32,976 nt of DNA from positions 1 through 32,976 of the IMG/VR virus record IMGVR_UViG_3300044718_000105; one strand, 5' to 3'. The DNA is from a virus. Positions 19,300-32,976 of the stretch are shown here, piece after piece (the first letter of the stretch is position 1; every line of letters starts with the position of its first letter). Position numbers and translations under genes: made by a program. The notes below the pieces were generated by a model, which was not told the DNA's origin, searched no databases, and worked only from the letters and a program-made list of their open reading frames with translations.

Positions 19300-20157
19300 T
19301 TAGGCTACCGAGCGTTCGTACAGCGCCAGGCGCTGGCGGAAAATTGATTTGCGCTGCTTCGCTGCCTTGGCGTCTACGCTCTGATCGCAATCGCATCCGG
19401 TGCAGTCGCAACCCTCGTGCGAGCAGCTCACGCAGTTCCCATCACCGCATTCAGAGCAAGGGCATTGGCACTGGCCGGCCGCAGCGGCTTTTTTCGTGAG
19501 TGACTTCGGAGCGTGCTTGAAGATCGAGAGATCAAACGATGCGGATGCCGCGCGGGCCCGGGCCTGCGTCTCGTCATCCGCGGAGCTGATCTGGTCACAC
19601 AGTCCGCAGTCTTCACAGTCCTGAGCGGTTAACCAGGTCTCGGCATCGAGAAGGGCCTTCAGCTCATCCTGGGTTCCGGTGTAACGCTTCATGTAGCCGG
19701 ATAACATCGAGTCGCGCACCTTGTCGAGAGTGTTGGCCATGGCGCGCATATCATTTGCGTCGCCGATCTCCATGCACCAGGGGTTATGGATCATCATCAT
19801 GGCGCCTTCGCCCATGGTGACCGTCTTGCCTACCATGGCGACGTAAGAAGCCGCGGATGCGGCCAGGCCGTCAATGATCACGTCCACCTGGTGGCCACTG
19901 GAGTTCAGCAAGTTGTAGATCGCGGCGCCCTCAAAGACATCTCCACCTGGTGAATTGATCCGGAGGACCACGCGGGAGATCTCGCCGGCCGCGGCGAGCT
20001 GATCGGCAACGTCCTTGGCTCCGATACCATAGCCGAAGTAGTCATCCCCGATCACTCCATAGAGGATGATCTGCAATTCATCTTCATTTTTGGTGGCCGA
20101 AAACATTGATTTCGGCGTCTTTGCGCGGAACATCCGTTTCATTTTTTCGCTTGTCAC
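19300..20157 (-). CDS. Prohead protease, ClpP/SppA-like, with a Cys-rich C terminus
   Basis: 285 residues from the GTG at 20157. That start makes a GTGA overlap with the portal stop and has AAAGG 8 bases upstream. Residues 30-180 are the protease domain: RINSPGGDVFEGAAIYNLL, catalytic Ser101 in DGLAASAAS, catalytic His124 in MMMIHNPW, and probable Asp170 in LLDAETWLTA. It trims the capsid scaffold during head maturation. The C terminus is unusual: ten Cys between 229 and 256 (pattern C-x-C-x-C-x2-C-x4-C-x2-C-x4-C-x-C-x2-C-x-C), followed by a basic tail. The cluster could bind metal or be a scaffold-binding extension; it is not part of the catalytic fold. Confidence 0.88.
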   Translation of the reverse strand: MTSEKMKRMFRAKTPKSMFSATKNEDELQIILYGVIGDDYFGYGIGAKDVADQLAAAGEISRVVLRINSPGGDVFEGAAIYNLLNSSGHQVDVIIDGLAASAASYVAMVGKTVTMGEGAMMMIHNPWCMEIGDANDMRAMANTLDKVRDSMLSGYMKRYTGTQDELKALLDAETWLTAQDCEDCGLCDQISSADDETQARARAASASFDLSIFKHAPKSLTKKAAAAGQCQCPCSECGDGNCVSCSHEGCDCTGCDCDQSVDAKAAKQRKSIFRQRLALYERSVA

Positions 20158-21704
20158 TGCGTAAACCTTTCTTTGAGGACGGCTTCCATGGTGTTTCCGA
20201 GGACCTCGGCAGCTATGGGCTGGGGATCGTACCCCTCCCAATTGGCCGATTTGGCCGCAATTTGGGCGGAAAATGCATCCGCAAACTGCTGAGAATCGGC
20301 CGGAATTCGCCCCAAAATGCACTCAATTACTGCAAGAACTGGCTGTAAAAAGGCAGATTCCGCGTATTTTTGCCGCTCAGCCTTCTTGCGCTTCAAAACC
20401 CGGCCGGTGGCGTCGCGGAAGAAGCGCGTGCAGGCCTGGCGCACGAGGAGCCGGGCATCCAGCGTGTCTGGCTCCGCCGGCTTCTCTTTGGGCGCGAATA
20501 TCTGGTCCACCAGGTCCACCGGTACCATGTTCATGGGTATGTAGCGGCGATCTCCGCCTGGTACTGGATTCTCATCTTCCATTTCGAGAATGGTGTTCTC
20601 GGAATAGACGCCGCGATCAAACATGTCTTTGTAGTGCTGGGTTCGCGCCGCGGTATCGCCGCGGAGCATGCCTTTGACCAGGAACTTGTTGTAGTACTTC
20701 TTTTTCTCTGAGGGCATGAGCAGCTTGCGATTGCCGGCCTGCTCGATTCGTTCCAGCCAGGGAATCACGGCATCGGTATAAAACTCCAGATTCTGCTGCT
20801 CGATGTTCGAAAAAGTACCGCGCTCGAGATCGCTGATTTTGTGAGGTGGAACGCGGAAGAGACCGGAGATTTCGGTGCGCTGAAATTTGCGCGTCTCCAG
20901 AAACTGGGCCTCGTCCGGAGGGATGCTCATCTTCTCGAACTTCAAGCCCTCTTCCAATACTGCCAGGCGGTGGGCGTGGTCCACGCCTCGGTGCATCTCC
21001 TCAAACTCTTCCTTCAGGCGGCGCTTGGTTTCTTTTTTGAGCGTACCAGGATGCGACAGAAATCCTGATGGACGTGACCCGTTGCCAAAGAACTTTGCTC
21101 CAAACACTTCGGTCGCTTTGGAAAGCCCCAGAGCCTCTGCGTGCAAGCGGATTGGCGAATACGCGTTGAAGCCGTCACTGGTCAGAGCAGGAATGTAGAG
21201 GATCTCATCATCGAAGTACTTGCCTTCCTGCCCGTTGTCTGTTCTGACATACCACCAGATCTCTCCATTTTCGAGTTGCGGCCGGAAGCGGTCCGGGCGG
21301 ATCGGCCAGAGCGCTACCACTTTGCCTGTCACCGGATTCCGCTCGATATAACTGGCGTGCTTGCCCCACAACAGAAGGTGAGCCATCATGCACTCGCGAT
21401 ACACAAACGAAGTCATGTGATCGTTGGGCTCGGCGTGCAGTACTGGATAAAGCGGGTGCGATTCCGCTATCTCGCGCCCCACGGGAAGGCGACGGTATAG
21501 ATTCCATGGCAGCATGGCCACGGCTTCGCTGAGGACGCGCACGCACTTGTAAACGTCAGAGACGGTCAGTGCATTGCTCTCTGTGATGACAATGCCGCTG
21601 GAGGATCCTGCCCCGCCAAACATCCGAACCAGCCAGTTTGAAGGGTTGGAAGGATTGACGCCGGCAACGCTCACCGCGTTGAGGATGCGCTGGACCAAGC
21701 CCAT
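20154..21704 (-). CDS. Portal protein, HK97 family
   Basis: 516 residues with the family order: N-terminal helices, LTVSDVYKCVRVLSEAVAMLPWNLYRR, HPLYPVLHAEPNDHMTSFVYRECMMAHLLLWGKHASYIER, then the clip and wing region and IPPDEAQFLETRKFQRTEISGLFRVPPHKISDLERGTFSNIEQQ, a strong signature. The C-terminal 100 residues are Lys/Arg/Ala-rich helices. It forms the dodecameric ring for DNA entry. It begins directly after the stop of the small membrane gene. Confidence 0.93.
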   Translation of the reverse strand: MGLVQRILNAVSVAGVNPSNPSNWLVRMFGGAGSSSGIVITESNALTVSDVYKCVRVLSEAVAMLPWNLYRRLPVGREIAESHPLYPVLHAEPNDHMTSFVYRECMMAHLLLWGKHASYIERNPVTGKVVALWPIRPDRFRPQLENGEIWWYVRTDNGQEGKYFDDEILYIPALTSDGFNAYSPIRLHAEALGLSKATEVFGAKFFGNGSRPSGFLSHPGTLKKETKRRLKEEFEEMHRGVDHAHRLAVLEEGLKFEKMSIPPDEAQFLETRKFQRTEISGLFRVPPHKISDLERGTFSNIEQQNLEFYTDAVIPWLERIEQAGNRKLLMPSEKKKYYNKFLVKGMLRGDTAARTQHYKDMFDRGVYSENTILEMEDENPVPGGDRRYIPMNMVPVDLVDQIFAPKEKPAEPDTLDARLLVRQACTRFFRDATGRVLKRKKAERQKYAESAFLQPVLAVIECILGRIPADSQQFADAFSAQIAAKSANWEGYDPQPIAAEVLGNTMEAVLKERFTQ

Positions 21705-21860
21705 TTATTTTTTCTGCCCCACAGTTACGCTGATTGCGATCGCAATAAGCACCAGACCTGCAGAGATCATCCCGGCCGGGACGGATATCTTTGCCATGCC
21801 CCAACACACCAGCGCTCCGCCGGCGACGAATAGCCCATCATTCGCGAGTGCCTTGATCAT
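21705..21860 (-). CDS. Small two-span membrane protein between terminase and portal
   Basis: 51 residues from the ATG at 21860, four bases after the terminase stop (TGAAAAAATG). Two hydrophobic segments (about 9-25, LFVAGGALVCWGMAKI, and 28-46, AGMISAGLVLIAIAISVTV) with a short charged end fit a hairpin membrane protein. Unusual at this position. It might be a holin-like or accessory membrane protein. Longer forms starting near 21980 run through the terminase gene in another frame and are unlikely. Confidence 0.5.
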   Translation of the reverse strand: MIKALANDGLFVAGGALVCWGMAKISVPAGMISAGLVLIAIAISVTVGQKK

Positions 21861-21864
21861 TTTT

Positions 21865-23622
21865 TCAATTGAACTTCGCTGAAACGCTGAATATGCCGGC
21901 GCCCTGGTCGTAAACGGATCCAGTTTCTTCTTCCACGTGGACCATGCTGCGGCTTCGCGCGGTAATGAGAGCGGTGCCACCGTCTATGCGCTCGATGCTT
22001 CGTTCTTTGTCCGGGCGGATGCTGTCTGGAGTTTCGACAGCCACGATGTTGGAAATGCACCAGCGCAGTACTGGATTTCCGTCATGCTGGATCTGTTGCC
22101 CTAGTACCAGCTTTTCCACGTCCCTCATCGGTTCGGTGAGCACGGCCGCGTTCTGCGGAACCTTCACCATCTTGAACCCATGATTTTCCAATTGAGTGGA
22201 GAGCTGAGTAGCATTCCACGGATCGAATCCTATCTCCTCGATCTGGAACATTTCGCCGAGCGCGATGATGTCCTGACGAATGAGATCGTAATCAATCACA
22301 TCTCCAGGCGTAGCTTTTATAAGCCCTTGCCGGATCCAAACGTCATAAGGAACTCTGTCCTCTTTTACCCGGGCTTGCACATTCTTTTCTGGCACCCAAA
22401 AGAAGGCCAGAACCTTGCGCGCTTCGGGAAAGTGCAGAACAAACGCAGCCAAATCTTTGATCGAAGCGAGATCGAGCCCTCCGCAGGCCCGCTCTCCAAC
22501 CAAGTCCGCGGCGTTATAGATGCTTTTGCACGCATCCCATTTCTCAAGCGACATCCAGCGGGCGCCGCGTTCCGTCCAGATACAAAAGTTGAGGCGCTTA
22601 ACCAGGTTCTCTTTGCTGGGCATGCCCAATGCCTCAGTAACCTGCTCGCGCAAATACTTGTGATGGATGCTTACGCCCAGATTGGGATTCGCTTTAGGCC
22701 AGTGGCGCTCATCAGTCCACTTATCGCACTGCTCGCAATCGTCGCTGGGCTGGCTTTTGCCTTCAGCTTTACATTTAGCGCACGGATCGAGCCCGCACAC
22801 GAAACCAAACCACGTATCGTTGTCGAGCACGCCGCGGAGAATCTTTTCCGAGTACTCGTGATGGTTCCAGCAGACAGAATGCGGATCGCATCCTGAATTC
22901 GTGATTTCAATCTGGAGTGCCTGGCGCCGGCCCTTGGTACCAGCTCGCAACTTGTCAATCAGTATCGCATTGGGAGCTTCGTGTACTTCGTCAACGATAA
23001 TGATGTGCGGCCGCGGGCCGTCTATGCCCCTAGTGTCGGAAGAGATAGCCTTGAGAAAAGAGTGCGTCGAGAGGACAGAAAGCGTGTTGGAACTCCGCTG
23101 AATTCTTGCAGCCAGGTACGGAGAGGCCTCCACCATGTTATCGGCGTCTCGGAAGACTATTTTTGCTTGCTCTTTCTTTGTGGCCGCGAGGTAAACCTCC
23201 GCGGCCGACTCCTTATCCCCGATCAGACCGTAAAGACCTATGCCGGCAGCCATAGGCGATTTGCCGCTGCCCTTGCCGATCTCGATGTAGGCAGTCCGGA
23301 ATCGGCGATATCCGTCTGGCCCTTTCCAGCCGAATAGGTTGCCAAGAACAAATTGTTGCCAAGGCTCCAGGAGGAATGGCCTTTTGCCCTCGCCTTCCAC
23401 CAGGACCAGCACGCGCTCAAAAAACCTGACGACTTTTTGCGCCGCGGCCTCGTCCCAGGACAGGCCTCGATCCGCGCCTTCCCTCAGATCGCGCACATGA
23501 CGTTCCACAGCCAGGTGCACCAGCTCGTTGGTCACGATCCGGCCGTCCAGCACGCCCTGGCTATACTCCGCGATCTTCGGGAGCTTACTGTGTGAGCGTT
23601 TTAGTAGAGACTGGATCGTCAT
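21865..23622 (-). CDS. Terminase large subunit
   Basis: 585 residues from the ATG at 23622. Walker A GKGSGKS is at 116-122, in the context TAYIEIGKGSGKSPMAAG, and Walker B HIIIVDEVHEA has its acidic pair at 211-212. A Cys cluster (276, 281, 284, 296, 299, a zinc-knuckle-like insert) lies between the ATPase and nuclease domains, as in COG4626-type terminases. The nuclease part has GGLDLASIKDLAAFVLHF and GFDPWNATQLSTQL. It pumps and cuts concatemeric DNA at the portal. It overlaps the small subunit by 38 bases. Confidence 0.93.
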   Translation of the reverse strand: MTIQSLLKRSHSKLPKIAEYSQGVLDGRIVTNELVHLAVERHVRDLREGADRGLSWDEAAAQKVVRFFERVLVLVEGEGKRPFLLEPWQQFVLGNLFGWKGPDGYRRFRTAYIEIGKGSGKSPMAAGIGLYGLIGDKESAAEVYLAATKKEQAKIVFRDADNMVEASPYLAARIQRSSNTLSVLSTHSFLKAISSDTRGIDGPRPHIIIVDEVHEAPNAILIDKLRAGTKGRRQALQIEITNSGCDPHSVCWNHHEYSEKILRGVLDNDTWFGFVCGLDPCAKCKAEGKSQPSDDCEQCDKWTDERHWPKANPNLGVSIHHKYLREQVTEALGMPSKENLVKRLNFCIWTERGARWMSLEKWDACKSIYNAADLVGERACGGLDLASIKDLAAFVLHFPEARKVLAFFWVPEKNVQARVKEDRVPYDVWIRQGLIKATPGDVIDYDLIRQDIIALGEMFQIEEIGFDPWNATQLSTQLENHGFKMVKVPQNAAVLTEPMRDVEKLVLGQQIQHDGNPVLRWCISNIVAVETPDSIRPDKERSIERIDGGTALITARSRSMVHVEEETGSVYDQGAGIFSVSAKFN

Positions 23623-24103
23623 CTTCGAGGAGCTTGTCCAGCTCATCCTTGCCGTCGTTGCCCGGCGCCATAGTCTGAACCTTTGATCGCATCGCCGGCG
23701 ACAATCCAAAATCTCCCAGGAACTGGCGCATGATTTTTGCTGATTCGTTCTTCATGGCCACAGCCGGATTTTTCTTGAGTTTGGCTCCAACGACTTCCTG
23801 CTGCCGATTCAGGATCGGTTCCTCGACCATGGCGCCATTCCTGGCGATGTATTCCTCGGCCCATCTAAATTGGGCATAGGCTGAACAGTAGCCGGCTAGA
23901 GCTGAGCCATCTGCAATAGTGAGTACGCGCATGTTCAGTAGAATGGGAACCATTCTCTTCCATTCGTCCTGCGCGACCTCAGACAAAAAGTCCGGCATGT
24001 CCGGCTCTCCGATCAGAGGCCTGGGCTCATTCGCATTAAGCGGTCGGTGCCCCGGATTGCCGGTCAGCTTTTTTAGGGCGGTGGGTTTTGGCGTTCTGGA
24101 CAA
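23585..24103 (-). CDS. Terminase small subunit, P27 family
   Basis: 172 residues from a TTG at 24103 with a purine-rich AGAAAGAAG upstream. The start LKKLTGNPGHRPLNANEPRP is the P27-family signature (LK-x-L-x-GNPG-x-R), followed by DEWKRMVPILLNMRVLTIADGSALAGYCSAYAQF and helices. It recognises the packaging site. It is the first gene after the putative late promoter and terminator. Confidence 0.92.
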   Translation of the reverse strand: MSRTPKPTALKKLTGNPGHRPLNANEPRPLIGEPDMPDFLSEVAQDEWKRMVPILLNMRVLTIADGSALAGYCSAYAQFRWAEEYIARNGAMVEEPILNRQQEVVGAKLKKNPAVAMKNESAKIMRQFLGDFGLSPAMRSKVQTMAPGNDGKDELDKLLEDDDPVSTKTLTQ

Positions 24104-24203
24104 AAAGCTTCTTTCTCAAAATGTGCGGATCAGCCTGTAAACGGAAAAAGGCAGAGGCATTTCCAGTTAACAACGAATCAGGGTAGGAGTACAATTGCAG
24201 AGA

Positions 24204-24248
24204 TTAAAAGCCGCTCGATGCTTCCAAAGCATCTGCAGCGGCTCTTAA
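24204..24248 (-). terminator. Two-part intrinsic terminator ahead of the terminase genes
   Basis: AGCCGCT (24209-24215) pairs with AGCGGCT (24237-24243), and inside it GATGCTT (24217-24223) pairs with AAGCATC (24227-24233) over CCA. On the minus strand the outer stem runs straight into TTTTAAT; on the plus strand there is no T-run, so it acts leftward. It lies about 130 bases downstream of the putative late promoter and 100 bases before the first terminase gene, so read-through must be regulated or partial. Confidence 0.75.
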
Positions 24249-24384
24249 TGAGTAAGCGGCGATCGGTGCGGGTCTCGTCTGATCTGAGCGTCCAAAACTC
24301 AGGCCAGCCTCATCGGTTGCCGTTTTATTTTTTGAAGAACAGAGCGAACCAGCGTGATCTTACCGCTGTCATTATCTCCACAAT

Positions 24385-24414
24385 TTTATAGTAGTTACTA
24401 CTATTTCGACGCAA
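24385..24414 (-). promoter_or_regulatory. Putative late promoter with an internal palindromic operator
   Basis: On the minus strand TTGCGT (24409-24414) and TATAAA (24385-24390) are 18 bases apart. A perfect palindrome ATAGTAG-TTA-CTACTAT (24388-24404) lies in the spacer and the first half of the -10 box, exactly where a repressor would block RNA polymerase. The surrounding 24381-24510 stretch is AT-rich. The stretch 24249-24579 holds no gene that I can support other than this control region. The -35 matches only three of six consensus bases, so promoter confidence is moderate. Confidence 0.5.
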
Positions 24415-24579
24415 ATATTTGTAATATTTTCCCAAATTGGCACAAATTTCCGCAATCTGCGCTTTAATTCCCGTTTTAGGAACAACCGTGAAAAAAAATA
24501 TTTCGCGGGAATGCGCGTTTTGCTGGGGCGGGGTCGCCTTGGCGACAGGCTGCCAGGGATTTCGGGTACCCCCGCCATC

Positions 24580-25089
24580 TCACCGCGTCGGAAGTCTTCG
24601 CTGGACGGCCATCTGTGGCCAGCGCCTGACGTTATGGAGCATGTCGGCAGTAGCATCAGCCTCGCATGCTATGTATATCGTCGCAGGCGAGCCAAAGCCG
24701 GCACGCATCACCGTTTCACATTTGCATATCCTTACGAACGTCACTAGCTGCTCGATCAGCGTCTTGCGCGCGTGGCAGCCAGCGCACGTGCCCTGCAGGT
24801 TAGATCTAACGTCTGTGCCATCCTGGGCCTTCGGGATGACGTGGTCAACGTGTACTGAGCGCTCAATGCATCCGATGTTGAAAGGATCGGCACAGTACGG
24901 TTCCTCAGCCAGCACCGCAGGCCTGGTGACTCTAATCCAGTGGTAGTTATAGCCACGCGCCGCTGGGTTGCCGCGTTGCCGGTCATAATCACGCTGCTTC
25001 TGTGCGGCGTGCGCTCCACAACGGCCGCGCACTACGGCCATGTAAGGACAGCGCGGCTGGCTGCAAGCTGTGGGACTTGATACAGGCAT
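24580..25089 (-). CDS. HNH endonuclease
   Basis: 169 residues from the ATG at 25089; earlier ATGs at 25119 or 25182 are possible and none has a good ribosome site. The N-terminal part has CSQPRCPYMAVVRGRCGAH, a treble-clef-like Cys set, and YNYHWIRVTRPAVLAEEPYC. The core HNH motif is VHVDHVIPKAQDGTDVRSNLQGTCAGCHARKT. In HK97-type phages an HNH protein next to the terminase genes helps the terminase cut cos DNA. The last 60 residues (from LVTFVRICKC) do not look like the usual ending and may be an extension. The late control region lies between it and the terminase genes. Confidence 0.85.
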   Translation of the reverse strand: MPVSSPTACSQPRCPYMAVVRGRCGAHAAQKQRDYDRQRGNPAARGYNYHWIRVTRPAVLAEEPYCADPFNIGCIERSVHVDHVIPKAQDGTDVRSNLQGTCAGCHARKTLIEQLVTFVRICKCETVMRAGFGSPATIYIACEADATADMLHNVRRWPQMAVQRRLPTR

Positions 25090-25220
25090 TGGTGAAACAC
25101 AGTTGCCGGCAACTACCATGCGCCGCTTGTAGCCTTCGCATGAGGCGCCCCACCTCAGTGTTTGAATGCCGAGGCGACGCATGGTACTAGCCGGCCAGTT
25201 CTCTTACTTTACGAAGGGCG

Positions 25221-25367
25221 TTATAGACGGGTCCGCTTGCGCAGCGCCCACAACAACACAGCCGCGTCCCGCCGGCCGTTGAAAGTGATTGTTATTTCCT
25301 GCGTGCATCCGGTCTGCAAATGCACTACGGTCTTGCCCATGAGTGTCTGTTGCGTCCAGATGTGCAT
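25221..25367 (-). CDS. Small hypothetical protein (48 aa)
   Basis: 48 residues, ATG 25367, stop 25221. The protein (core MGKTVVHLQTGCTQEITITF and then GRRDAAVLLWALRKRTRL) reads like a beta hairpin followed by an amphipathic helix. A longer overlapping frame (25204-25386) looks less protein-like. No ribosome site is evident. A Met at residue 10 (position 25340) could be the true start. Function unknown. Confidence 0.45.
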   Translation of the reverse strand: MHIWTQQTLMGKTVVHLQTGCTQEITITFNGRRDAAVLLWALRKRTRL

Positions 25368-25392
25368 TGACAGTTACCAGCCGCATGTTTAA

Positions 25393-25518
25393 TTACGCGG
25401 CCTTGCGCAGTTCTCTTTCTTTGCGACGACGTTCAGGGCGCGTCATCTTCCGAGCCGGAAAGCGGCAGACGAAACAACTACCGACAGCAACGCCGTGAAA
25501 GCATGTAATGGTGCTCAT
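25393..25518 (-). CDS. Small Cys-containing basic protein (41 aa)
   Basis: 41 residues, ATG 25518, stop 25393. It opens with three Cys and a His (TCFHGVAVGSCFVCRF), a possible small zinc knuckle, and ends in a basic helix (RPERRRKERELRKAA). This is the sort of tiny nucleic-acid-binding protein that phage early or middle operons carry. The 33-bp tandem repeat ends 4 bases upstream. Function unknown. Confidence 0.5.
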   Translation of the reverse strand: MSTITCFHGVAVGSCFVCRFPARKMTRPERRRKERELRKAA

Positions 25519-25521
25519 TAG

Positions 25522-25590
25522 AAGTTCAGAAAAGAGAATCGGATAAGTGGATGAAAGTTCAGAAAAGAGAATCGGATAAGTGGATGAAAG
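25522..25590. repeat. 33-bp tandem repeat, two copies plus a fragment
   Basis: Bases 25522-25554 and 25555-25587 are identical over 33 bases, and a third copy breaks off at about 25590. On the minus strand each unit carries CACTTATCCGATTC, of which TTATCC matches the start of a DnaA box (TTATCCACA) only partly. It sits between the genes at 25642 and 25518 and could be a duplicated leader, operator or iteron. Confidence 0.85.
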
Positions 25591-25641
25591 TCAGGACAAT
25601 AGACCGAGGCAAGCCAATGTAGGCCGCCGTTGTTCCTGGTG

Positions 25642-25788
25642 CTACGCTTTAAAGATTTTCTTTGGGCTCTGGTCATAGGTGTGTTTTGTCGCGCGCAGGT
25701 ACTGGACAGAAATGATTTCTTTTATTCGAGATTTCGATATCCGTCCTATGCGGGAAATATCTTCAAGTGATGGCTTAGAGAGATCCAT
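25642..25788 (-). CDS. Small basic helical protein coupled to the NusG paralogue (48 aa)
   Basis: 48 residues. Its ATG (25786-25788) shares a base with the stop of the NusG-like gene (TGATG), a coupling junction. The sequence is helical and basic (LEDISRIGRISKSRIKEII, then KHTYDQSPKKIFKA). Not recognised. The coupling suggests it works with the NusG paralogue or regulates its synthesis. Confidence 0.55.
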   Translation of the reverse strand: MDLSKPSLEDISRIGRISKSRIKEIISVQYLRATKHTYDQSPKKIFKA

Positions 25789-26303
25789 CAAGCTGCTCCG
25801 AGCCAGGCTGGATCCAGTTCCACAGACACCGATCTGTTCAGCAAAGGAACGCTCACAATAAAACGATGTTTGGAGTTTTCTCTGAGAACAATTCCGTCAA
25901 TGCCGGCTAACGGTCCGTCACTGATCCGGATCTTTGCGCCAGGCTGCAGATAGGAATGTGATTCTGAGATCAGGCCAGATTCTGTAATCACTCGAATGCT
26001 CTCGATCTCCGCGTCGTCGATTGGAATTATGTGCTGGCCGAATCCAACAACACCTAGAACGCCTGGCACCATCTTCAGCGGCGCCTGCATTTCGGGTGTC
26101 ATGTGGCAGAACAGATATCCAGGGAAAAGAGCTGCCTCAATTTCCTTGACCCGGTCTGACCAGCGTCGACGGATTTTTTGTACCGGTGTGAACTCAGCGA
26201 AATCACGCAAGCGCATGAATTCAGCGGTTAGCTGCTCGCGCCCGGTATGAACCTGTACCGCGTACCAACGCTTGCCATCATTGCCTGGACAGGCTTTCGC
26301 CAT
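25788..26303 (-). CDS. NusG/RfaH-family transcription elongation factor paralogue, likely antiterminator
   Basis: 171 residues from the ATG at 26303, with GGGAG five bases upstream; an earlier start at 26375 adds an unsupported leader. Residues 12-108 form the NGN domain that clamps RNA polymerase: RWYAVQVHTGREQLTAEF, FTPVQKIRRRWSDRVKEIEAALFPGYLF, MVPGVLGVVGFGQHIIPID. Residues 119-150 are the KOW domain (LQPGAKIRISDGPLAGIDG, then IVLREN). The layout is that of the specialised NusG paralogues (RfaH, UpxY, LoaP) that let polymerase pass terminators in long operons. A phage copy located between the early and late genes, upstream of a promoter-terminator pair, suggests late antitermination. Its own leader (26304-26558) is long and structured. 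That it controls the late operon is inference. Confidence 0.85.
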   Translation of the reverse strand: MAKACPGNDGKRWYAVQVHTGREQLTAEFMRLRDFAEFTPVQKIRRRWSDRVKEIEAALFPGYLFCHMTPEMQAPLKMVPGVLGVVGFGQHIIPIDDAEIESIRVITESGLISESHSYLQPGAKIRISDGPLAGIDGIVLRENSKHRFIVSVPLLNRSVSVELDPAWLGAA

Positions 26304-26428
26304 AAAACTCCCAATAAAGCTGAAGCGCGTTGCCCCGGCTTCACTGGAGGGCGAAGGAATCAGGACTGCCGGCACTTCAATAAGCTTGGAAGCCCGCTAA
26401 GACTCGCGCTTAGAGAATGCTGATGACG

Positions 26429-26447
26429 GTCCTGAAACCTTCAGGAC
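26429..26447. promoter_or_regulatory. 8-bp hairpin in the leader of the NusG paralogue
   Basis: GTCCTGAA (26429-26436) pairs with TTCAGGAC (26440-26447) over a 3-base loop. On the plus strand a TTTTT stands seven bases after it. In the minus-strand leader of the NusG-like gene it could be a regulatory stem. RfaH-type proteins read a hairpin in their target site, so it is worth testing. Confidence 0.45.
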
Positions 26448-26518
26448 GGAGACTTTTTGGAATGTTCAGTTGCGACGATAAGGGGGGATTCAGAGTTGCA
26501 CAAGAGGGTGCTGGCGAA

Positions 26519-26550
26519 CTGCTGGCAAAGTGACAGCACTTTGCCAGCAG
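26519..26550. promoter_or_regulatory. Perfect 14-bp hairpin between the ribbon-helix-helix and NusG-like genes
   Basis: CTGCTGGCAAAGTG (26519-26532) pairs perfectly with 26537-26550 over the loop ACAG. It lies 8 bases past the stop of the ribbon-helix-helix gene and about 215 bases before the NusG-like ATG. There is no T-run on the minus strand, so it may stabilise RNA or act as a protein-binding site rather than terminate. Confidence 0.6.
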
Positions 26551-26558
26551 TTGTGAAT

Positions 26559-26732
26559 TTAACGGCGAGAGCTGCTACTCTGGCGCTCTGGCAGGCGATC
26601 AAGTATGCAGTTTACGGCCGCATTGAACGACACGCCCATGCGTCTCGCTTCTCTATAGATGCGGTCAAAATTCTGATCGCTAAAGGCGATAGTTGTGCGG
26701 TTTGGTTTGTTTTTACGTTTTGTAGTGGCCAT
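26559..26732 (-). CDS. Ribbon-helix-helix DNA-binding protein (Arc/MetJ type)
   Basis: 57 residues from the ATG at 26732; a TTG at 26747 adds five residues. A basic N terminus (MATTKRKNKPNR) leads into the strand TTIAFS, the helix QNFDRIYREARRMG, the turn VSFNAA and the second helix VNCILDRLPER. This is the complete RHH order. It probably binds operators as a dimer, for example in its own promoter (a weak TTGAGC-18-TACCAT pair lies upstream on the minus strand) or the palindrome at the late promoter. The rightward gene at 26879 is divergent. Confidence 0.8.
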   Translation of the reverse strand: MATTKRKNKPNRTTIAFSDQNFDRIYREARRMGVSFNAAVNCILDRLPERQSSSSRR

Positions 26733-26878
26733 TGGCTGGATGTCCAAAAAAATGAATTAGTAGTTTTGAAAGCTATGGTACAGCCCTGATCCTAAGTAGC
26801 TCAATCAGGTTACAACTGGGGCGGGGGAGATCTCTGGGGCTTCACCTTAGCGATCCAGAGACAAACTACTGTACCACG

Positions 26879-27247
26879 ATGCACGACGGTATTAAGGTGA
26901 AAAATACAGCTCACATAAGCCAGAATGCAGCTCCTGGTATCCATCGAACCACAGTGGAGCGCCAGGGGGATCGAGCCGAAGTGTCCGGCCTGGTGGCGTC
27001 GATCCGGACCAGGCATGGCCGGCGCGGCGCAAAGAAGCCGTTCTATGTAATTTGCTTTGTGGATGGTTTCGAGATCACATCGTTTCATACCTCGGCCGAC
27101 TCGTTACAGCGGTATGAAAAGGCCCGCGGCAATACTGTCCAGGCAGTAGCGAAAGTGACCCGCGCGCGTGATGATCGGGAATACTTCAATTTGCAGTTCT
27201 TTAGGTCTATTGGAAACGTTTCCACACCCGACTCTGCACGGGTTTGA
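26879..27247 (+). CDS. Rightward OB-fold-like protein of unknown function
   Basis: 122 residues. Residues 33-110 have alternating strands (AEVSGLVASIRTR, KPFYVICFVDGFEITSFHT, TVQAVAKVTRARDDREYFNLQF) that look like an OB fold, so single-stranded nucleic-acid binding is possible. The first 30 residues are less ordered; a GTG at about 26897 could be the true start. There is no ribosome site by either start. It is the only rightward gene in this half of the window and diverges from the RHH gene, and could be a regulator or replication accessory. The fold call is by eye. Confidence 0.5.
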   Translation: MHDGIKVKNTAHISQNAAPGIHRTTVERQGDRAEVSGLVASIRTRHGRRGAKKPFYVICFVDGFEITSFHTSADSLQRYEKARGNTVQAVAKVTRARDDREYFNLQFFRSIGNVSTPDSARV

Positions 27248-27845
27248 TCTGCGCTTTTGATCTTTGCCGATATCCACGGCATGCTTACGGTTGAGCTGAC
27301 AAGTTTGGAAGCTCGCGTGCTTTTCGCCCTTAGTTGGCGAGAGCGGGGAGAGTTTGAGAGGGGCGGCAGTCCCTCTCAATGAAACAAGGCGGAGCCCGAC
27401 GCGCAGCCACCGAAGATAATTTCCACAGCGTCCACAGGCGGAGATCACGGCGGCTGGGAAATAATTTGGTCGCGGAATTACAGCCAAAATCACTACTTCC
27501 GTAATTTCGAGCCCGAACACCCGTATTTTCAACTCCGTAGAACCTGTGAATTCGCTACAGTAGACACGTAAAAACGCTTCTTCGGAGATGTTGGTTTTCC
27601 ACAATGTGGAAAGTTAGCGTAAACGAATGTTGTCAGCGAAGGTCGCCACCGGTCGGATCCCGCCTCTCTGCGTAAATTAACGATTACTGTTAACGTTTGT
27701 TATCGCAGGAAGCAGGTGGGAAAAGTGAACATAAATCAGTGCGAAGCCGCATAAACACTGCTTATGTCGACAGGATTCGATCAGGCACACCTTTCCCTTT
27801 GCTTTTCTGTCGTGCGCTGAGATGTGTTGGGAATTAGAAAGTGCT
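27248..27845. other. Gene-free 600-bp stretch with palindromes and TCCACA motifs (possible origin or control region)
   Basis: No convincing gene on either strand. Features: a 9-bp hairpin (27354-27362 with 27371-27379); ATTTCCACA at 27419-27427 and TCCACA at 27431-27436; a 17-bp palindrome TTTCCACA-A-TGTGGAAA at 27596-27612, which holds two inverted near-DnaA boxes; two GCGTAAA copies near 27618 and 27670 and a GTTAACG near 27690. It separates the replication-like gene from the regulator block. An origin is plausible by position, not proven. Confidence 0.45.
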
Positions 27846-29009
27846 TCAGTTTGGAGGCTGGGGAATGAGAACTTTAATGATTTTTTCAGGGATGCCGGCT
27901 GTCAACATTTTTTCAGAGCACGCGCGCCAAAACGTGTGCAGCTTTCTTTCAGTGCCGGTCCACTCATCGAGCAGGGCCCGGTGGATCTCGCTCGCCAGTC
28001 GCCAATAGCTCTTATCCTGGATCTGCTTACGGAAATGTTTCAGCCGGTCCAGTTCCTGTCGCGCGTGTTCCCATGTAAGCATTCGATCGGCGATGTAGAT
28101 ATAGAGGCAAGAAGGCTGATGCCAATTTCCCGCTTCGTCTTTATACGCCTTATAGTGTTTGACCTGGAGGACGCCGACCAGCTCCCAGAAGCGGATCGCG
28201 CGCCTTACGGTTTTAGTGTGCATCGAAAGGGCCTGGGCGATTTTGCGCTGTGACACCGCAACGTCATAGCGAAGGCCCTTGCGCGCTTTCGTATTGGGCG
28301 GTTCGCCCTGGATCAGAGTCTTTAGCTGAAGCAATCCGCAAGAGCAGAGGTATTCAAACACCTGCTTGGCTGTCTTCGCTGTGACTCCAGCTTTTCGAAG
28401 TGCTTCGTGAGTCATCCACCGCTGATCAGCCATCCATCCCGGAACGTGATAGTACCCGTTGGCTTTCGACTTGGTGTCGAATTTGACCGGCAGGGAAGCA
28501 CTGCGCAGATCCTCCAGCTTTGGGAGCGCATAATCCTCTTTCGAATATCTGGGGTTTTTGCCTTCCGGTAGAACGGTGTGCAGATGAGACGCACAAGCAT
28601 ATTTTTTTCGTTTCGATTGCAGAAGCTTCGATCTGCGGAGATGGCGCTGTATCGAAGACCGTGAACGCAAGCCCGCGGCCGCGGCCAAAGCCATTCGCGT
28701 GGCTGGATCCACGATGCTGCGCTTCTTGCCGTCCTGGGGGATACAGCCGGCCATTGTCGCGGCGTTGAAAACTACAATCTCAGATTTTTTGTCAGGATGA
28801 ACGCGCTCTGAGGCTCTTGCAGGATTGAGCCCTTCCAGCCCCAGGGCGCGACGTGCCGGAGTGGTTTTGTGATCGTACAACTGCTCGCCCTCGAGCGCAT
28901 GCATCAGCCTGGCCATGCGGAAGGTCTCGGCATAATTCGGAGTGACGCCGCATTCCTGGAAGGCCTGCGGCGCCACCGGCTGAGGGTGCTTCTCGAAGAC
29001 GTTGGCTAT
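27846..29009 (-). CDS. Winged-helix protein, possible replication initiator, with apparent AUA start
   Basis: 387 residues if translation starts at ATA 29009. That codon sits 6 bases after a perfect AGGAGG (29016-29021) and overlaps the upstream stop as ATAG, like the ATGA junctions nearby. The next usable start, GTG 28976, has no ribosome site. The N terminus is basic with RARR-like helices (RMALAAAAGLRSRSSIQRHLRRSKL). Two winged-helix segments follow: WMTHEALRKAGVTAKTAKQVFEYL and VSQRKIAQALSMHTKTVRRAIRFWELVG, as in phage O-like and plasmid Rep proteins. The C terminus is helical. Next to the gene-free region. The replication role is inferred. Confidence 0.6.
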   Translation of the reverse strand: MANVFEKHPQPVAPQAFQECGVTPNYAETFRMARLMHALEGEQLYDHKTTPARRALGLEGLNPARASERVHPDKKSEIVVFNAATMAGCIPQDGKKRSIVDPATRMALAAAAGLRSRSSIQRHLRRSKLLQSKRKKYACASHLHTVLPEGKNPRYSKEDYALPKLEDLRSASLPVKFDTKSKANGYYHVPGWMADQRWMTHEALRKAGVTAKTAKQVFEYLCSCGLLQLKTLIQGEPPNTKARKGLRYDVAVSQRKIAQALSMHTKTVRRAIRFWELVGVLQVKHYKAYKDEAGNWHQPSCLYIYIADRMLTWEHARQELDRLKHFRKQIQDKSYWRLASEIHRALLDEWTGTERKLHTFWRACSEKMLTAGIPEKIIKVLIPQPPN

Positions 29010-29455
29010 GTGCGGCCTCCTATGTCTCCCTCAAGCCTGTACTTTGGGAATCTAGTTTTGAGCTGAACAATTGCCGGCCGCAAGATGGGATAGTTATTGG
29101 AATCGGCCATTAACGCCGCCTGCACAAACGCCTTCAGAAACCCGCCTGCTGGCGCCGGTTCGCCTTGCGCGATGCCGTACAACCAACGCTGAACTTCCTC
29201 CTCATCTTCCCGCACTGTGGCAGGACCTAGCTGGGAACGTTCCCCTGTTACACGGTCAGCATTCACACGTTTGAAATGGTCATACATCGAAAGCGTAGAA
29301 TCTAGCTTCGTTGCGATGCCACGTATAGAGTCATCCCAACCAGGACGCGATAGAGCCAATTCAGCAAAAGCAAGAACAGCCATTTGCCTTTGCATTTCGT
29401 CCAGCTCTATTTTGTGCAGGGAATCCGCCCCAACAATGAATTCATTGGGCGGCAT
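29006..29455 (-). CDS. Hypothetical early protein
   Basis: 149 residues from the ATG at 29455, with GGAG five bases upstream. Helical: IELDEMQRQMAVLAFAELAL, then a charged middle (VREDEEEVQRWLYGIAQGE) and FLKAFVQAALMADSNNYPILRPAIVQL. Not recognised. It overlaps the next upstream gene by 14 bases and the next downstream gene by 4 bases if that uses its AUA start. Confidence 0.6.
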   Translation of the reverse strand: MPPNEFIVGADSLHKIELDEMQRQMAVLAFAELALSRPGWDDSIRGIATKLDSTLSMYDHFKRVNADRVTGERSQLGPATVREDEEEVQRWLYGIAQGEPAPAGGFLKAFVQAALMADSNNYPILRPAIVQLKTRFPKYRLEGDIGGRT

Positions 29456-29771
29456 ACATTCTCCGATCTGGGCATTCTGTTTCCTCACACTTGATAAGCG
29501 TGGCACCATCTTTTGAAATGTGAACCAGAGCCTGATTCATCGTGTACTGGATCCGAGTTCGGCCACCGTTGTGTAGCGCACGTGTCATCTTGCCGGCGAG
29601 GGAAGCAAGCAAGAAACGATTGCTGATCTGTTTAACGGATTGGTGGACCAGCGCCGACCGAACACCCTTTAATACTGGATCTTCATTCAGAACTGGAGGC
29701 GTGTTGGCGGCAGCTATTCTGCGAGCTTTGACGGACGCTTGCACGTCGGCCCATGGAACGGATGATGTCAT
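29442..29771 (-). CDS. Hypothetical early protein (109 aa)
   Basis: 109 residues, ATG 29771 in an ATGA overlap with the upstream stop. The N-terminal half has WADVQASVKARRIAAAN and VKGVRSALVHQSVKQI-like helices. The C-terminal half has MTRALHNGGRTRIQYTMNQALVHISKDGATLIKCEETEC, beta-rich with two Cys. No family recognised. Confidence 0.6.
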   Translation of the reverse strand: MTSSVPWADVQASVKARRIAAANTPPVLNEDPVLKGVRSALVHQSVKQISNRFLLASLAGKMTRALHNGGRTRIQYTMNQALVHISKDGATLIKCEETECPDRRMYAAQ

Positions 29772-29959
29772 CGCACTACCCTCAGTTTCCGGATGAACAA
29801 TGTTGCCCTTTGTCCACGCCTGGAATGAAGCGCAGCATGGTGCCCCTTACGATAGCCGCGATTGAAAGATCGCCTGGCTCCTCGGCGATGCAATACCGCC
29901 ATCAGCAAGACTCCGAGCAGCATTCCTACCAGGATGCAGCCGATAATGGTGATCGTCAT
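29768..29959 (-). CDS. Small membrane protein with basic tail (63 aa)
   Basis: 63 residues from the ATG at 29959, in an ATGA overlap with the upstream gene. A long hydrophobic helix (TIIGCILVGMLLGVLLMAVL, residues 4-23) is followed by a very basic tail (HRRGARRSFNRGYRKGHH and RRGQRATLFIRKLRVVR). It is likely an inner-membrane protein with a cytoplasmic, nucleic-acid-compatible tail. AGGAG stands 11 bases upstream. Confidence 0.6.
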   Translation of the reverse strand: MTITIIGCILVGMLLGVLLMAVLHRRGARRSFNRGYRKGHHAALHSRRGQRATLFIRKLRVVR

Positions 29960-30177
29960 AGTGAGATCGCTCCTGTTCCTGCAGCGTGTCCAGTCCAGCC
30001 GGCTTTCTTGAGGCAAGATGGTTTGCTGCATAAGCCAGGTGCTACCCACCAACAGGACATAGGCTGTCCGTCAGGTCCCTTTACCTGACAAGCGCTCACG
30101 TCGGTGCAACCACACATCCCGCACTCCTGGAAGAGTGCGAACAGTGGTTGGATTTGATTGTTCAAGTGTGCGTACAA
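29956..30177 (-). CDS. Zinc-ribbon-like small protein, paralogue of the protein at 30457
   Basis: 73 residues starting at TTG 30177 with AGGAGG 8 bases upstream, the strongest ribosome site in the early region. Residues 19-55 carry C-x2-CGCTDVSAC, then CWWVAPGLCSKPSC: six or seven Cys in the same pattern as the larger protein at 30457-31056 (C-x2-CGCTEDKAC ... CHWVAPGLCSNPKC). The motif looks like a metal-binding knuckle seen in phage proteins of unknown function. It is coupled downstream by an ATGA overlap. Confidence 0.65.
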   Translation of the reverse strand: MYAHLNNQIQPLFALFQECGMCGCTDVSACQVKGPDGQPMSCWWVAPGLCSKPSCLKKAGWTGHAAGTGAISL

Positions 30178-30205
30178 AATTCCGACCTCCTCGTTTGTGA
30201 AATTT

Positions 30206-30415
30206 TTAAACTTTTTTCAGTAGTTGCCTCAGGTGAGCGTTAACCCTGTCTGGCTTCGGCGGCGTTAACCCACATTCTTCGTACGCAACCGCTTTTATGC
30301 GGTCCGCGATCTTGGGATGATTGAATTTAACCCACTCCCATGACAGCGTACGGATCAGTGATCCGACGTGTTGACGCCCGCGCATGCGTACCGTTGATGG
30401 TTTTGTAATTGTCAT
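30206..30415 (-). CDS. Hypothetical small basic protein
   Basis: 69 residues from the ATG at 30415 (an in-frame ATG at 30523 overlaps the upstream gene and is less likely). Basic and helical: TVRMRGRQHVGSLIRTLSWEWVKFNH, then KIADRIKAVAYEECGL and NAHLRQLLKKV. Looks like a DNA-binding or structural helix bundle. Not recognised. Confidence 0.5.
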   Translation of the reverse strand: MTITKPSTVRMRGRQHVGSLIRTLSWEWVKFNHPKIADRIKAVAYEECGLTPPKPDRVNAHLRQLLKKV

Positions 30416-30456
30416 TTGTTCTTCAACTGAGGCGCTTCTCCTGCATCCATCCATGT

Positions 30457-31056
30457 TTACGTCACAGGGCCGACCGCCTTCAACGCGCTCATGCTGATCA
30501 CAACGATGATCTGGTTCTCCCATGGCGCCGGCTCTGGTACCTTGCAGAACACGAGAAAGGCGTGAACCTGTAAAGAATTAAGCGAGGGAGACATCACCCA
30601 GGTTCCAGGCCCGATCTTGCGAAGGCCGAATTTCTTGACGCTGCCGTCCTCATCCAGTTCGTATTCGCCTAGCTTGAGGGGCAGTTCGATCAGGATGGGA
30701 TCGCCGAAAACCAAGGCGCGCAGAATTGCAACCGGTTCAGTGAGCGGATCCATCACTGTGAACACACCATCGCCTTCCTTGGTCGGAACCCAATTAATGA
30801 CTTGTTCTTTATTGCGCCATTCCGGTGTCAGATGTGCGATGGGATTACGCAGGCCGAAATCTCCAGGTTCTTCGAGGTAGTCACCTTTTTCGAAGGCATC
30901 CGTGCATTTTGGGTTGGAGCAGAGGCCAGGCGCCACCCAATGGCAGGGCTCGGCGGTCTGTGGATCGACGCACGCCTTGTCTTCTGTGCAGCCGCAAATA
31001 ATGCAGGCCATTTCGTCCGATCTAACCAGTGCCGCTACAGCTTGAATGTCTTTCAT
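30457..31056 (-). CDS. Protein with a zinc-ribbon motif and a beta-rich C-terminal domain
   Basis: 199 residues from the ATG at 31056 with GGAAGG four bases upstream. Residues 17-52 contain C-x2-CGCTEDKAC ... PCHWVAPGLCSNPKC, the motif shared with the 73-residue protein at 29956. A second domain follows (WVPTKEGDGVFTVMDPLTEPVAILRALVFGDPILIELPLKLGEYEL, then GTWVMSPSLNSLQVHAFLVFCKVPEP) that I do not recognise. The shared motif suggests a common partner or metal site. Coupled at its start by an ATGA overlap with the 34-residue gene. Confidence 0.65.
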   Translation of the reverse strand: MKDIQAVAALVRSDEMACIICGCTEDKACVDPQTAEPCHWVAPGLCSNPKCTDAFEKGDYLEEPGDFGLRNPIAHLTPEWRNKEQVINWVPTKEGDGVFTVMDPLTEPVAILRALVFGDPILIELPLKLGEYELDEDGSVKKFGLRKIGPGTWVMSPSLNSLQVHAFLVFCKVPEPAPWENQIIVVISMSALKAVGPVT

Positions 31057-31157
31057 AAAGCCTTCCAAAATATGCCTAGCGTTACCACAGCCCATACGAG
31101 AGCGATAAGAACCATGGACCAGCGAGATTTTGCGCAGCAATTGCCTCCATATCTCAT
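31053..31157 (-). CDS. 34-residue membrane peptide, overlapping both neighbours by 4 bases
   Basis: ATG 31155-31157, stop 31053-31055. The start lies inside the stop of the ATPase gene (ATGA) and the stop inside the start of the next gene (ATGA). The product is a basic Cys-containing head (MRYGGNCCAKSRWS) and one hydrophobic helix (MVLIALVWAVVTLGIFWKAL). Both junctions being perfect couplers argues that it is real. Function unknown. Confidence 0.6.
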   Translation of the reverse strand: MRYGGNCCAKSRWSMVLIALVWAVVTLGIFWKAL

Positions 31158-32785
31158 TGCTGCACCTTCTTGACGTCCACGTCCGGCGCCAGAATGTAAG
31201 AGCTGTTGTCGCCGCGCCAGAAAAAGCCGTCTTGTGTGAATTGCTTCAGCGGTTCGGAGATGCGGACGTTGGGAGTCTTGGGCTCGAGGCCGCGGCGCAC
31301 CAGTTCGTTCTTGATTTCGGTGAACGTTCTGGGTTTATCGAACCAATGCTCAGACATGAGGCGCGCGATCTTACCCTTGGTACCGGAGTCATCGAGATTA
31401 AGAACGCGTGGCGAGATCTTGATCTCGATGGCAGGCTTGACCGCGGCTAGGCGAATTAGCGTAGGATCGCGACGGATTTGCTCGACCACCTTTGCTACCA
31501 GGCTCGCTTCGTCTGCCGGCAGCGGAGAGCGAGGAGATCCATTGGCTGAAAAGTCTTTTGGCGTGTGACCAATAATTCCATTGTTCAGAAAATCCAAAAG
31601 TTTACTGACACCGGAATCGTCGATCTCAGGAACAACTTGCTTTAACTCTGTTGCCGTGTAGGTCCGCGGCATTTCCTCTGCCTCCCTTTCTGGGAGGCCT
31701 GGCTCATCTACCAGGCCTCCCGCGGGCAGCTCGGGGCCCGCCGGCCCGGCCGGAGGTTGCGGTGGATCCGCCTTCTCCGGCTCTCGCGTTGGGTTATGCG
31801 AATCTCTTGAAACCGAATGAATCTTCTTGGGATCGAGCGCAATCGCGCGGGCGCCTTCATCGTCCATCCAGGCGGGTTGCACATATGCCCGCTGCAGGTA
31901 CTGGCCATGGCAAACATAGAACTGCCCCAGCTCGAGCTGGGCGACCTGCGCGGCCTTCGGACGCTTTACCCCTTCGGGCATGTTGCTGATCGCGCGCTTC
32001 AGTTCGTTAGCTTCGCGCTGGACTCCGATCATCCAAACGGCCGCTGCTCGCAATAACATCTTCTCGACGCCGGCTAGGTCCTGGGCATCCATCCAAATGT
32101 AGTTTTTGAGCCCGGCGCCCTCCCGGGCCAACTTCTCCACAATCAGCTTCGCCGGAGTCTTTCGGCCTTGCGGCACGAACTTCCATGCTTCCGGGATGAC
32201 CGTGATCACATCCGACTCGTGCCGGTATATCCACTCGAGCGTCGAGCTGATCACCAGCATCTGCAGTTCTTCCGGATACTTCAGAAGGTCCATCACGTTA
32301 AGCCCGGGCTGCAGGTCCAGCTTTCCAATCTTGGGAAGGGAAGCGATAAGAGGGACAACGGTTTCAAAGTAGGCGCTCAGCAACATGTACATGTCTTCGC
32401 TGAATGCGTTCTTTGACTTCTTCATCAGATCGTGCGCACGGCTCTGTATATCGGCGAGCGTCTTTGCGCCCTCGCAGGACCGCATCAGCCAGGGCCGTTT
32501 GAAGCTCATGCGCTCCCGCATGATGGATTCAAGAATCGACTCGACGAATTGCCAGTCAGTGCGCTCTTTGAAGAAGGGAAGAATGCGGCGTCCAGATTGG
32601 AAACTGGCCTCGCCGCGTTTAGTAATGAAGGCTACGGATTTCAGTCCGGACCGGGATATCAGCGCCTCGAGAGCAGTTGTTTTGCCGCTCTCCTGGGTCT
32701 GTCCGGTAATGGCCATGTGGCGGACAGGGATGCTGACCGGCTCTCCGGAGCCAACCTCATAGCCGAGATGTACCTTTCCTTTCAC
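31154..32785 (-). CDS. HerA/FtsK-like ATPase with C-terminal winged-helix region
   Basis: 543 residues, GTG start at 32785 in a GTGA overlap with the LuxR-like gene. Walker A GQTQESGKT is at 28-36 (context HMAITGQTQESGKTTALEAL). The Walker B position reads VITVIPEAWKF (194-203), with PEAW where DEA-type is usual; it is part of a segment I recognise from HerA-like phage and plasmid ATPases (EAWKFVPQGRKTPAKLIVEK, then NYIWMDAQDLAGVEK). A Pro/Gln-rich linker (about 335-370) separates it from a C-terminal region with helix-turn-helix character (ARLMSEHWFDKPRTFTEIKNEL). It probably pumps or remodels DNA. The phage role is unknown. Confidence 0.75.
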   Translation of the reverse strand: MKGKVHLGYEVGSGEPVSIPVRHMAITGQTQESGKTTALEALISRSGLKSVAFITKRGEASFQSGRRILPFFKERTDWQFVESILESIMRERMSFKRPWLMRSCEGAKTLADIQSRAHDLMKKSKNAFSEDMYMLLSAYFETVVPLIASLPKIGKLDLQPGLNVMDLLKYPEELQMLVISSTLEWIYRHESDVITVIPEAWKFVPQGRKTPAKLIVEKLAREGAGLKNYIWMDAQDLAGVEKMLLRAAAVWMIGVQREANELKRAISNMPEGVKRPKAAQVAQLELGQFYVCHGQYLQRAYVQPAWMDDEGARAIALDPKKIHSVSRDSHNPTREPEKADPPQPPAGPAGPELPAGGLVDEPGLPEREAEEMPRTYTATELKQVVPEIDDSGVSKLLDFLNNGIIGHTPKDFSANGSPRSPLPADEASLVAKVVEQIRRDPTLIRLAAVKPAIEIKISPRVLNLDDSGTKGKIARLMSEHWFDKPRTFTEIKNELVRRGLEPKTPNVRISEPLKQFTQDGFFWRGDNSSYILAPDVDVKKVQQ

Positions 32786-32976
32786 TTAATGATCCCCTTA
32801 CGCAATGCTGTCGCCACAGCGTGCGTCATATCGTCAGCACCGAGTTTGTCGAAAATTCCGCGGGTACGATTTCGGATAGTTCCCGGAGTCGTACCCGTTC
32901 GATCTGCAATTGAAATGTAGTTCTCGCCATCAGCCCGCAACTGCAGGATCAGAACTTCTCTTTCTGTCAGGTTCAT
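32782..32976 (-). CDS. LuxR/GerE-type helix-turn-helix protein (possibly partial)
   Basis: 64 residues, almost exactly one LuxR_C_like domain: LTEREVLILQLRADGENYISIADRTGTTPGTIRNRTRGIFDKLGADDMTHAVATALRKGII. There is no receiver or ligand domain. The ATG is the last three bases of the window, so the gene may extend beyond it, but the fit to a solo domain suggests it is complete. Regulator of early genes, inferred. It is coupled to the ATPase gene by a GTGA overlap. Confidence 0.8.
   Translation of the reverse strand: MNLTEREVLILQLRADGENYISIADRTGTTPGTIRNRTRGIFDKLGADDMTHAVATALRKGIIK

Follow-up and report, generated by a model that had tools for sequence, protein, structure and literature searches.

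A NusG paralogue at the early/late boundary of tailed phages as a probable late-gene switch

The window, which is the whole stretch of DNA analysed here, a linear virus record from IMG/VR that is 32,976 bases long, carries a gene for a NusG paralogue, and the reading that we favor, with a probability of about 0.6, is that this phage protein works in the manner of RfaH or LoaP and takes the role that Q has in lambda, being loaded at a leader element that is specific to the phage clade. The analysis establishes the NusG-type fold of the product, the Q-like position of its gene, the conservation of that position, and conserved elements located there; polymerase binding, the use of the element as the loading site, antitermination, and timing are what we infer from this anatomy.

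In the proposed model, the NusG paralogue would be made late in the early (replication) operon and loaded onto RNA polymerase within the leader that separates its gene from the packaging genes, the loading site being a clade-specific cis element, which in the phage of the window is probably the hairpin at 25195-25105. The loaded protein would then ride with the polymerase through the HNH, terminase, and virion genes, suppressing pausing and termination along the way. In the rhizobial phages, the leader presents a structured element followed by a terminator, as expected of a LoaP-like or Q-like switch, and at loci that carry an ops core an RfaH-like recruitment would be likely. The claim of the preliminary description that a NusG paralogue serves as the late antiterminator in the stead of Q gains strong comparative support from the conserved position and the clade-specific cis elements, whereas the circuit that was drawn for it, consisting of one promoter and one terminator, is not supported.

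Fold and family of the NusG paralogue

25788..26303, minus strand: NusG paralogue (NGN + KOW), 171 aa, P0001; from Pfam, NCBIfam, PHROGs, AlphaFold2, and Foldseek

A profile search with the window protein places an NGN domain (Pfam NusG, PF02357, 6.2e-16) at residues 11-104, and the family phrog_6386, named “transcription antiterminator”, matches it at 4.5e-28. The models of the NusG paralogues (UpxY, RfaH, LoaP, NusG) align over the full length of the protein, with UpxY (NF033644) being the only curated NCBIfam model that is passed, narrowly, with 101.3 bits where 100 are required, over residues 13-166. The cut-offs of the models for RfaH (TIGR01955; 77.5 vs 144.5 bits), LoaP (NF033641; 77.6 vs 125 bits), and the housekeeping NusG (TIGR00922; 46.2 vs 135.7 bits) are not reached by the window protein, and neither is the Pfam KOW model by its C-terminus.

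The AlphaFold2 model, made from a 33-sequence alignment and having a mean pLDDT of 90.3, consists of the NGN domain followed by a KOW β-barrel, the strands of which are located at residues 124-170 with a pLDDT of about 90. The top PDB matches of this model in Foldseek are NusG and RfaH, the best being NusG, and the NGN domain superposes on that of RfaH (8pen) with a TM-score of 0.84 by target length and an rmsd of 1.8. By these predictions the window protein is a member of the NusG/Spt5 superfamily, with an NGN domain and a predicted KOW β-barrel. The complete NGN and KOW gene that had been read from the letters of this DNA is thereby confirmed, the NGN domain by Pfam and the KOW barrel by AlphaFold2, in agreement with the UpxY model and the Foldseek matches. 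A search by peptide pattern returned no close relatives of the window protein in the viral-contig or genome-contig collections.

Conserved position at the early/late boundary

27846..28976, minus strand: ORF with a weak winged-HTH profile match, upstream of NusG
24580..25089, minus strand: HNH endonuclease; phrog_144 (4.4e-19), Pfam HNH, and alignment with the sister phage contig L358
23585..24103, minus strand: terminase small subunit (TerS), with a TTG start at 24103; phrog_83 (2.4e-51)
21865..23709, minus strand: ORF of the terminase large subunit (TerL), with the true start inside the ORF; phrog_9 (4.3e-159)

The packaging, head, and tail genes of the window are located on the minus strand and run leftward, the order being NusG - HNH - TerS - TerL - portal - protease - major capsid protein, which puts the NusG gene at the early/late boundary, upstream of the packaging genes and on their strand, as would be expected of a gene in the role of Q. 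The HNH gene spans approximately 25089-24580; its ORF opens at 25182, and the probable start is placed at ATG 25089 because the gene of the sister phage begins at the equivalent MP.. codon. The winged-HTH ORF occupies the slot that in relatives is held by the replication initiator, and no homology to those initiators was found.

The same arrangement is present in six annotated phages (phi3LM21, phi2LM21, PPF1, MseS-P1, Rivra, and Nsp-JY10), in which a replication gene is followed by NusG, by an HNH or hypothetical gene, and by TerS, TerL, and portal, with the start of the phrog_6386 gene overlapping the preceding helix-turn-helix or replication-initiation gene; in PPF1 and Rivra the replication side and the packaging side join across the record ends. 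In phiLM21, this slot is taken by a divergent protein, gp34 (226 aa; 9710-10390 of locus L016), which shows the NGN match only (phrog_25909) and lies between the replication genes and the HNH-terminase genes. Prophage-type loci were collected from 248 Rhizobiaceae genomes by NusG similarity alone, with a cut above the housekeeping copies, and were joined by two loci from another search; in all 24 of the resulting loci, the initiator, NusG, TerS/TerL, and portal genes follow one another on one strand, TerS being unrecognized in one of them (L075).

Beyond the rhizobia, IMG/VR was scanned for the DNA signature of LFPGYLF, which provides samples and not censuses. A NusG-type ORF is present at the signature in 60 of 80 loci among the matches listed. 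There are 27 signature loci with enough sequence and a large downstream ORF, and in at least 14 of them the first large same-strand ORF downstream is a TerL by Pfam among the matches listed (TerL 5, Terminase_6 4, GpA 3, and Terminase_3 2), with PHROGs suggesting up to 19 terminases among the listed matches for the same 27; their large upstream ORFs, again among the matches listed, include DnaB and primases and no terminase. Three loci (L321, L331, and L339) are exceptions, with the terminase upstream of NusG. Since four terminase families are found downstream and replication genes upstream, the NusG gene is tied to the early/late boundary and not to any one head module. The gene and its layout, which the preliminary description had proposed to seek in related phages, thus recur in the annotated phages, the prophage loci, and the wider set of viral loci. 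Matches from Salmonella, Acinetobacter, and Microcystis in the phage collection, being chromosomal copies of nusG or rfaH, were excluded.

A structured element behind NusG in rhizobial phages

The rhizobial loci share a stretch of approximately 200 nt directly behind the NusG stop codon, the core of which is formed by a stem P1 (consensus GCCCTGA/TCAGGGC) enclosing P2, followed by CAGTGCnnnnGCTATG. P1 and P2 covary, with 23 double-change cells vs 7.0 ± 2.1 in shuffles in an alignment made without regard to structure, and with 51 vs 15.8 ± 2.9 in a second set of 67 distinct viral sequences, the alignment of which was fitted to the model. Of 33 loci searched with the covariance model R1, 28 have the element directly behind NusG, 27 of these loci having been used to build the model (the instances are L002:12514-12736 and 27 further rhizobial loci, together with IMG/VR loci L086-L165). 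Rfam gave no credible family in the rhizobial leaders, the element being absent from it, and none in window 20000-32976.

The association of the element with the NusG gene is also seen from the side of the element. In IMG/VR contigs retrieved by the element pattern alone, the pattern is preceded on its own strand by a NusG-type ORF, the end of which is 90-153 nt away, in 76 of the 76 contigs that could be assessed among the matches listed, 4 more having too little upstream sequence. The pattern occurs in 13 of the 248 Rhizobiaceae genomes, and 12 of the 13 sites adjoin a NusG match, the thirteenth site, in G217, having been outside this check. Counting from the pattern start, a terminator-like hairpin is reached within 200 nt in 52 of 78 cases on the sense strand vs 0 on the antisense strand and 3 in shuffled sequence, among the matches listed.

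The rhizobial element is not present in the window, where the best R1 score is 7.4 bits (E 1.7) with filters off, and it is absent from the other viral NusG loci searched; a class-wide R1 search, the first pass of which scores few candidates per genome, returned weak extra matches only. An 11-mer, CTATGACCAGA, at about 25680, which is common to the window and the rhizobial element, was judged to be a chance occurrence. Three rhizobial loci (L072, L074, and L076) have a variant leader (GGACGAGCCGAAAGAG..) that is unmatched by R1 and may represent another type of leader, associated with a subgroup of NusG.

ops cores and other viral leaders

The 8-mer GCGGTAGC, the core of the ops site of RfaH, ops being the known site for this protein family, had been spotted in two loci before the count was made. 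It is present on the sense strand in 6 of 50 other viral loci, no more than 300 nt downstream of NusG, and in none on the antisense strand, among the matches listed, and two further copies overlap the 3′ end of the NusG gene, one of them (L332) reading GGCGGTAGCGTG. An ops core is thus located at, or just behind, the stop codon of the phage nusG in L332, L363, L305, L322, L324, L375, L376, and L377. The leader of the window has no copy of this core.

Two candidates for a general feature of phage NusG leaders were rejected. Intrinsic terminators ahead of the terminase are not in excess in generic leaders, with 4 of 47 on the sense strand vs 11 on the antisense strand and 7 in shuffles among the matches listed, and strong hairpins (z < -4) occur in 1.5% downstream vs 2.0% inside the gene. 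With no excess of terminators, intrinsic antitermination would not be a general need, and Rho or pausing may be the target. Loci L328 and L371 possess, about 100 nt behind NusG, a conserved leader of their own with a terminator at its end (GCCCCGGCGA..GGGGC TTTTT), which does not match the rhizobial model.

These leaders bear on an alternative in which the phage protein, like RfaH, would sustain processivity along the long late operon, countering Rho, pausing, or silencing and coupling ribosomes to polymerase, with no single defined terminator to overcome. The fold close to NusG and RfaH with its β-barrel KOW, the ops cores in some leaders, and the generic loci with no excess of intrinsic terminators are all consistent with such a factor, whereas terminator-like hairpins close the rhizobial leaders, on the sense strand alone, and this alternative is considered rather unlikely.

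The leader of the window and the promoter-terminator pair

25105..25195, minus strand: 91-nt hairpin between NusG and HNH, candidate loading or leader element; z -5.14
24385..24414, minus strand: promoter-like site TTGCGT-N18-TATAAA, 8/12 consensus bases; not conserved
24204..24248, minus strand: terminator-like hairpin with a short U-tract, dG -27.2; not conserved in L358

For the phage of the window, the reading of a NusG-type factor loaded at a clade-specific leader element can be compared with the viral contig L358, a sister phage in which the NusG, HNH, TerS, TerL, portal, protease, and capsid genes follow in the same order and whose TerL is 62% identical to that of the window. The segment 25203-25088, which holds the 91-nt hairpin, has a dG of -56.2, and the NusG-HNH interval of L358 contains a hairpin with a dG of -56.9 (z -7.99) that begins approximately 33 nt past the NusG stop codon. 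Their 13-bp central stems, TACCATGCGTCGC/GCGGCGCATGGTA in the window and CAGCATGCGCCGT/GCGGCGCATGCTG in L358, are homologous by hand alignment, and 13 of 13 pairs hold in both, 2 of them via double changes and 2 via single changes (G-U); the outer stems are wholly different in sequence and pair in both. The likely start codon of HNH (about 25089) is downstream of the hairpin, which, having no U-tract, is not a terminator. Folding energies as low as that of the hairpin occur elsewhere in the window, and the region directly behind NusG (25792-25490) has no unusual structure (z 0.62). Supported by one sister sequence, the hairpin appears to be a better candidate for the cis element than the promoter-terminator pair farther downstream.

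A single-sequence scan found no relatives of the window TerL; profile scans found many, with an adjoining NusG essentially only in L358/L419 and a weak NusG match in L453. As most relatives of this TerL have no NusG nearby, other regulators can fill that place. Given a window with neither rhizobial element nor ops core, generic leaders with no terminator excess, and TerL relatives mostly without NusG, the model is strongest for the rhizobial phages; for the window itself, antitermination would rest on the fold, the position, and the one conserved hairpin.

The switch had previously been described as a leftward promoter followed by an intrinsic terminator ahead of the first terminase gene, a pair that is located between HNH and TerS. 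The hairpin at 24248-24204 is real (z -3.28, with 0 of 200 shuffles as good) and ranks second among the minus-strand terminator-like sites in a scan of the whole window, but its tail is only UUUUAAU, part of which is within the stem, and it is absent from L358. The promoter is weak: the site at 24414-24385 falls below the scan threshold, the region contains fewer promoter-like sites than expected (2 vs 6.3 in shuffles), and the HNH-TerS gap of L358, 113 nt long, contains neither part of the pair. The pair does precede terS, but it is downstream of HNH, and with that gene intervening between NusG and the pair, the packaging module begins upstream of the latter. In this phage the pair may be genuine; judged from the sister sequence, it does not belong to the conserved parts of the system. 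Within the spacer of the promoter-like site, a perfect 17-nt palindrome (24404-24388) could be an operator, and a 62-aa ORF just upstream of NusG (26559-26747, minus strand), which resembles a small ribbon-helix-helix DNA-binding protein, is a candidate for its binder.

It could further be argued that the leader elements do no more than terminate the early transcript or function in packaging (cos/pac), with the late genes using their own activated promoter and NusG acting elsewhere. The location of the elements near the HNH and terminase genes and the promoter-like site with its palindrome just before terS in the window would be in line with this; however, the PPF1 and Rivra records end by terS, hundreds of bases downstream of the element, the distance of the element from the NusG stop is fixed (90-153 nt) and that from the terminase variable among the matches listed, and the promoter of the window is a poor match that lacks conservation, and the argument is considered improbable. 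The circuit exactly as drawn, in which the NusG paralogue would override the terminator 24248-24204 behind a late promoter at 24414-24385, has in its favor a strong hairpin ahead of terS that is the second-best terminator-like site on its strand, and is very improbable in view of a promoter with 8/12 consensus bases, the lack of both parts in L358, and an HNH gene, part of the packaging group in relatives, upstream of the pair.

Relation to known systems and significance

NusG paralogues are known as operon-specific elongation factors (RfaH, LoaP, UpxY, and plasmid forms) of long bacterial and plasmid operons. LoaP of Bacillus works with an RNA leader hairpin, and this is the basis of its likeness to the rhizobial element, where a NusG paralogue is likewise paired with a structured leader and terminators; it differs in that the window protein remains under the LoaP cut-off and the sequence of the rhizobial element has no Rfam match. 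UpxY genes regulate the capsule operons of Bacteroides, whereas the window gene precedes HNH, terminase, and capsid genes and not a polysaccharide operon. With lambda Q, the likeness is one of position, both genes closing the early region ahead of the late operon on the same strand, and the NusG-type fold is, to our knowledge, unrelated to Q.

The likeness to RfaH and ops consists of the NGN and KOW fold, with the NGN domain of the window superposing on that of polymerase-bound RfaH, and of the occurrence in the loci of some relatives of GCGGTAGC right behind the phage gene. In contrast to RfaH, the window protein is under the cut-off of the RfaH model and its window is without the ops core, its KOW domain is modelled as a β-barrel and not as the autoinhibited helical hairpin of RfaH, and its target would be a phage late operon and not a cell-surface operon. 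The mechanism of RfaH recruitment at ops is described in PMC5995543, and LoaP is treated in PMC12691694.

The families phrog_6386 and phrog_25909, both named “transcription antiterminator”, hold the window and rhizobial phage proteins by profile, the names being annotations only. The occurrence of rfaH-like genes on prophages is the subject of a single remark (PMC7593976), and the early region of phiLM21-like prophages closes with HNH and an annotated antiterminator (PMC12429752). In the open-access literature, to which the search was confined and which leaves subscription papers aside, we found no functional study of phage NusG-type genes, and neither the rhizobial element nor the general pattern of a Q-like position was described there. 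While the mechanism of such proteins is already known, the late-gene role and the cis elements are apparently undescribed.

From the comparison of these loci, a NusG-type switch is probably a widespread means by which phages turn on their late genes. The broader proposition, that NusG paralogues are a second widespread class of late regulators replacing Q in many unrelated tailed phages, with leaders that differ by clade and are made of ops-like DNA, of a multi-hairpin RNA with a terminator (the new structured element of the rhizobial phages), or of a long hairpin (the phage of the window and its sister), is put forward with even odds. If NusG paralogues do turn on the late genes of many tailed phages, they would fill a gap in the understanding of phage regulation, protein-element pairs of new specificity would become available, and RfaH-type recruitment would be open to study in small, inducible, and nonpathogenic systems, for which the covarying rhizobial element offers a directly testable leader.

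Additional features of the window

The long gap between NusG and HNH also contains a 33-nt sequence, CTTTCATCCACTTATCCGATTCTCTTTTCTGAA as read on the minus strand, that is perfectly repeated in tandem at 25525-25590 and is absent in L358, and a possible 41-aa ORF, MSTITCFHGVAVGSCFVCRFPARKMTRPERRRKERELRKAA, at 25393-25518 on the minus strand. At the left end of the window, beyond the last late gene, a strong bidirectional terminator-like hairpin is located at 101-133.
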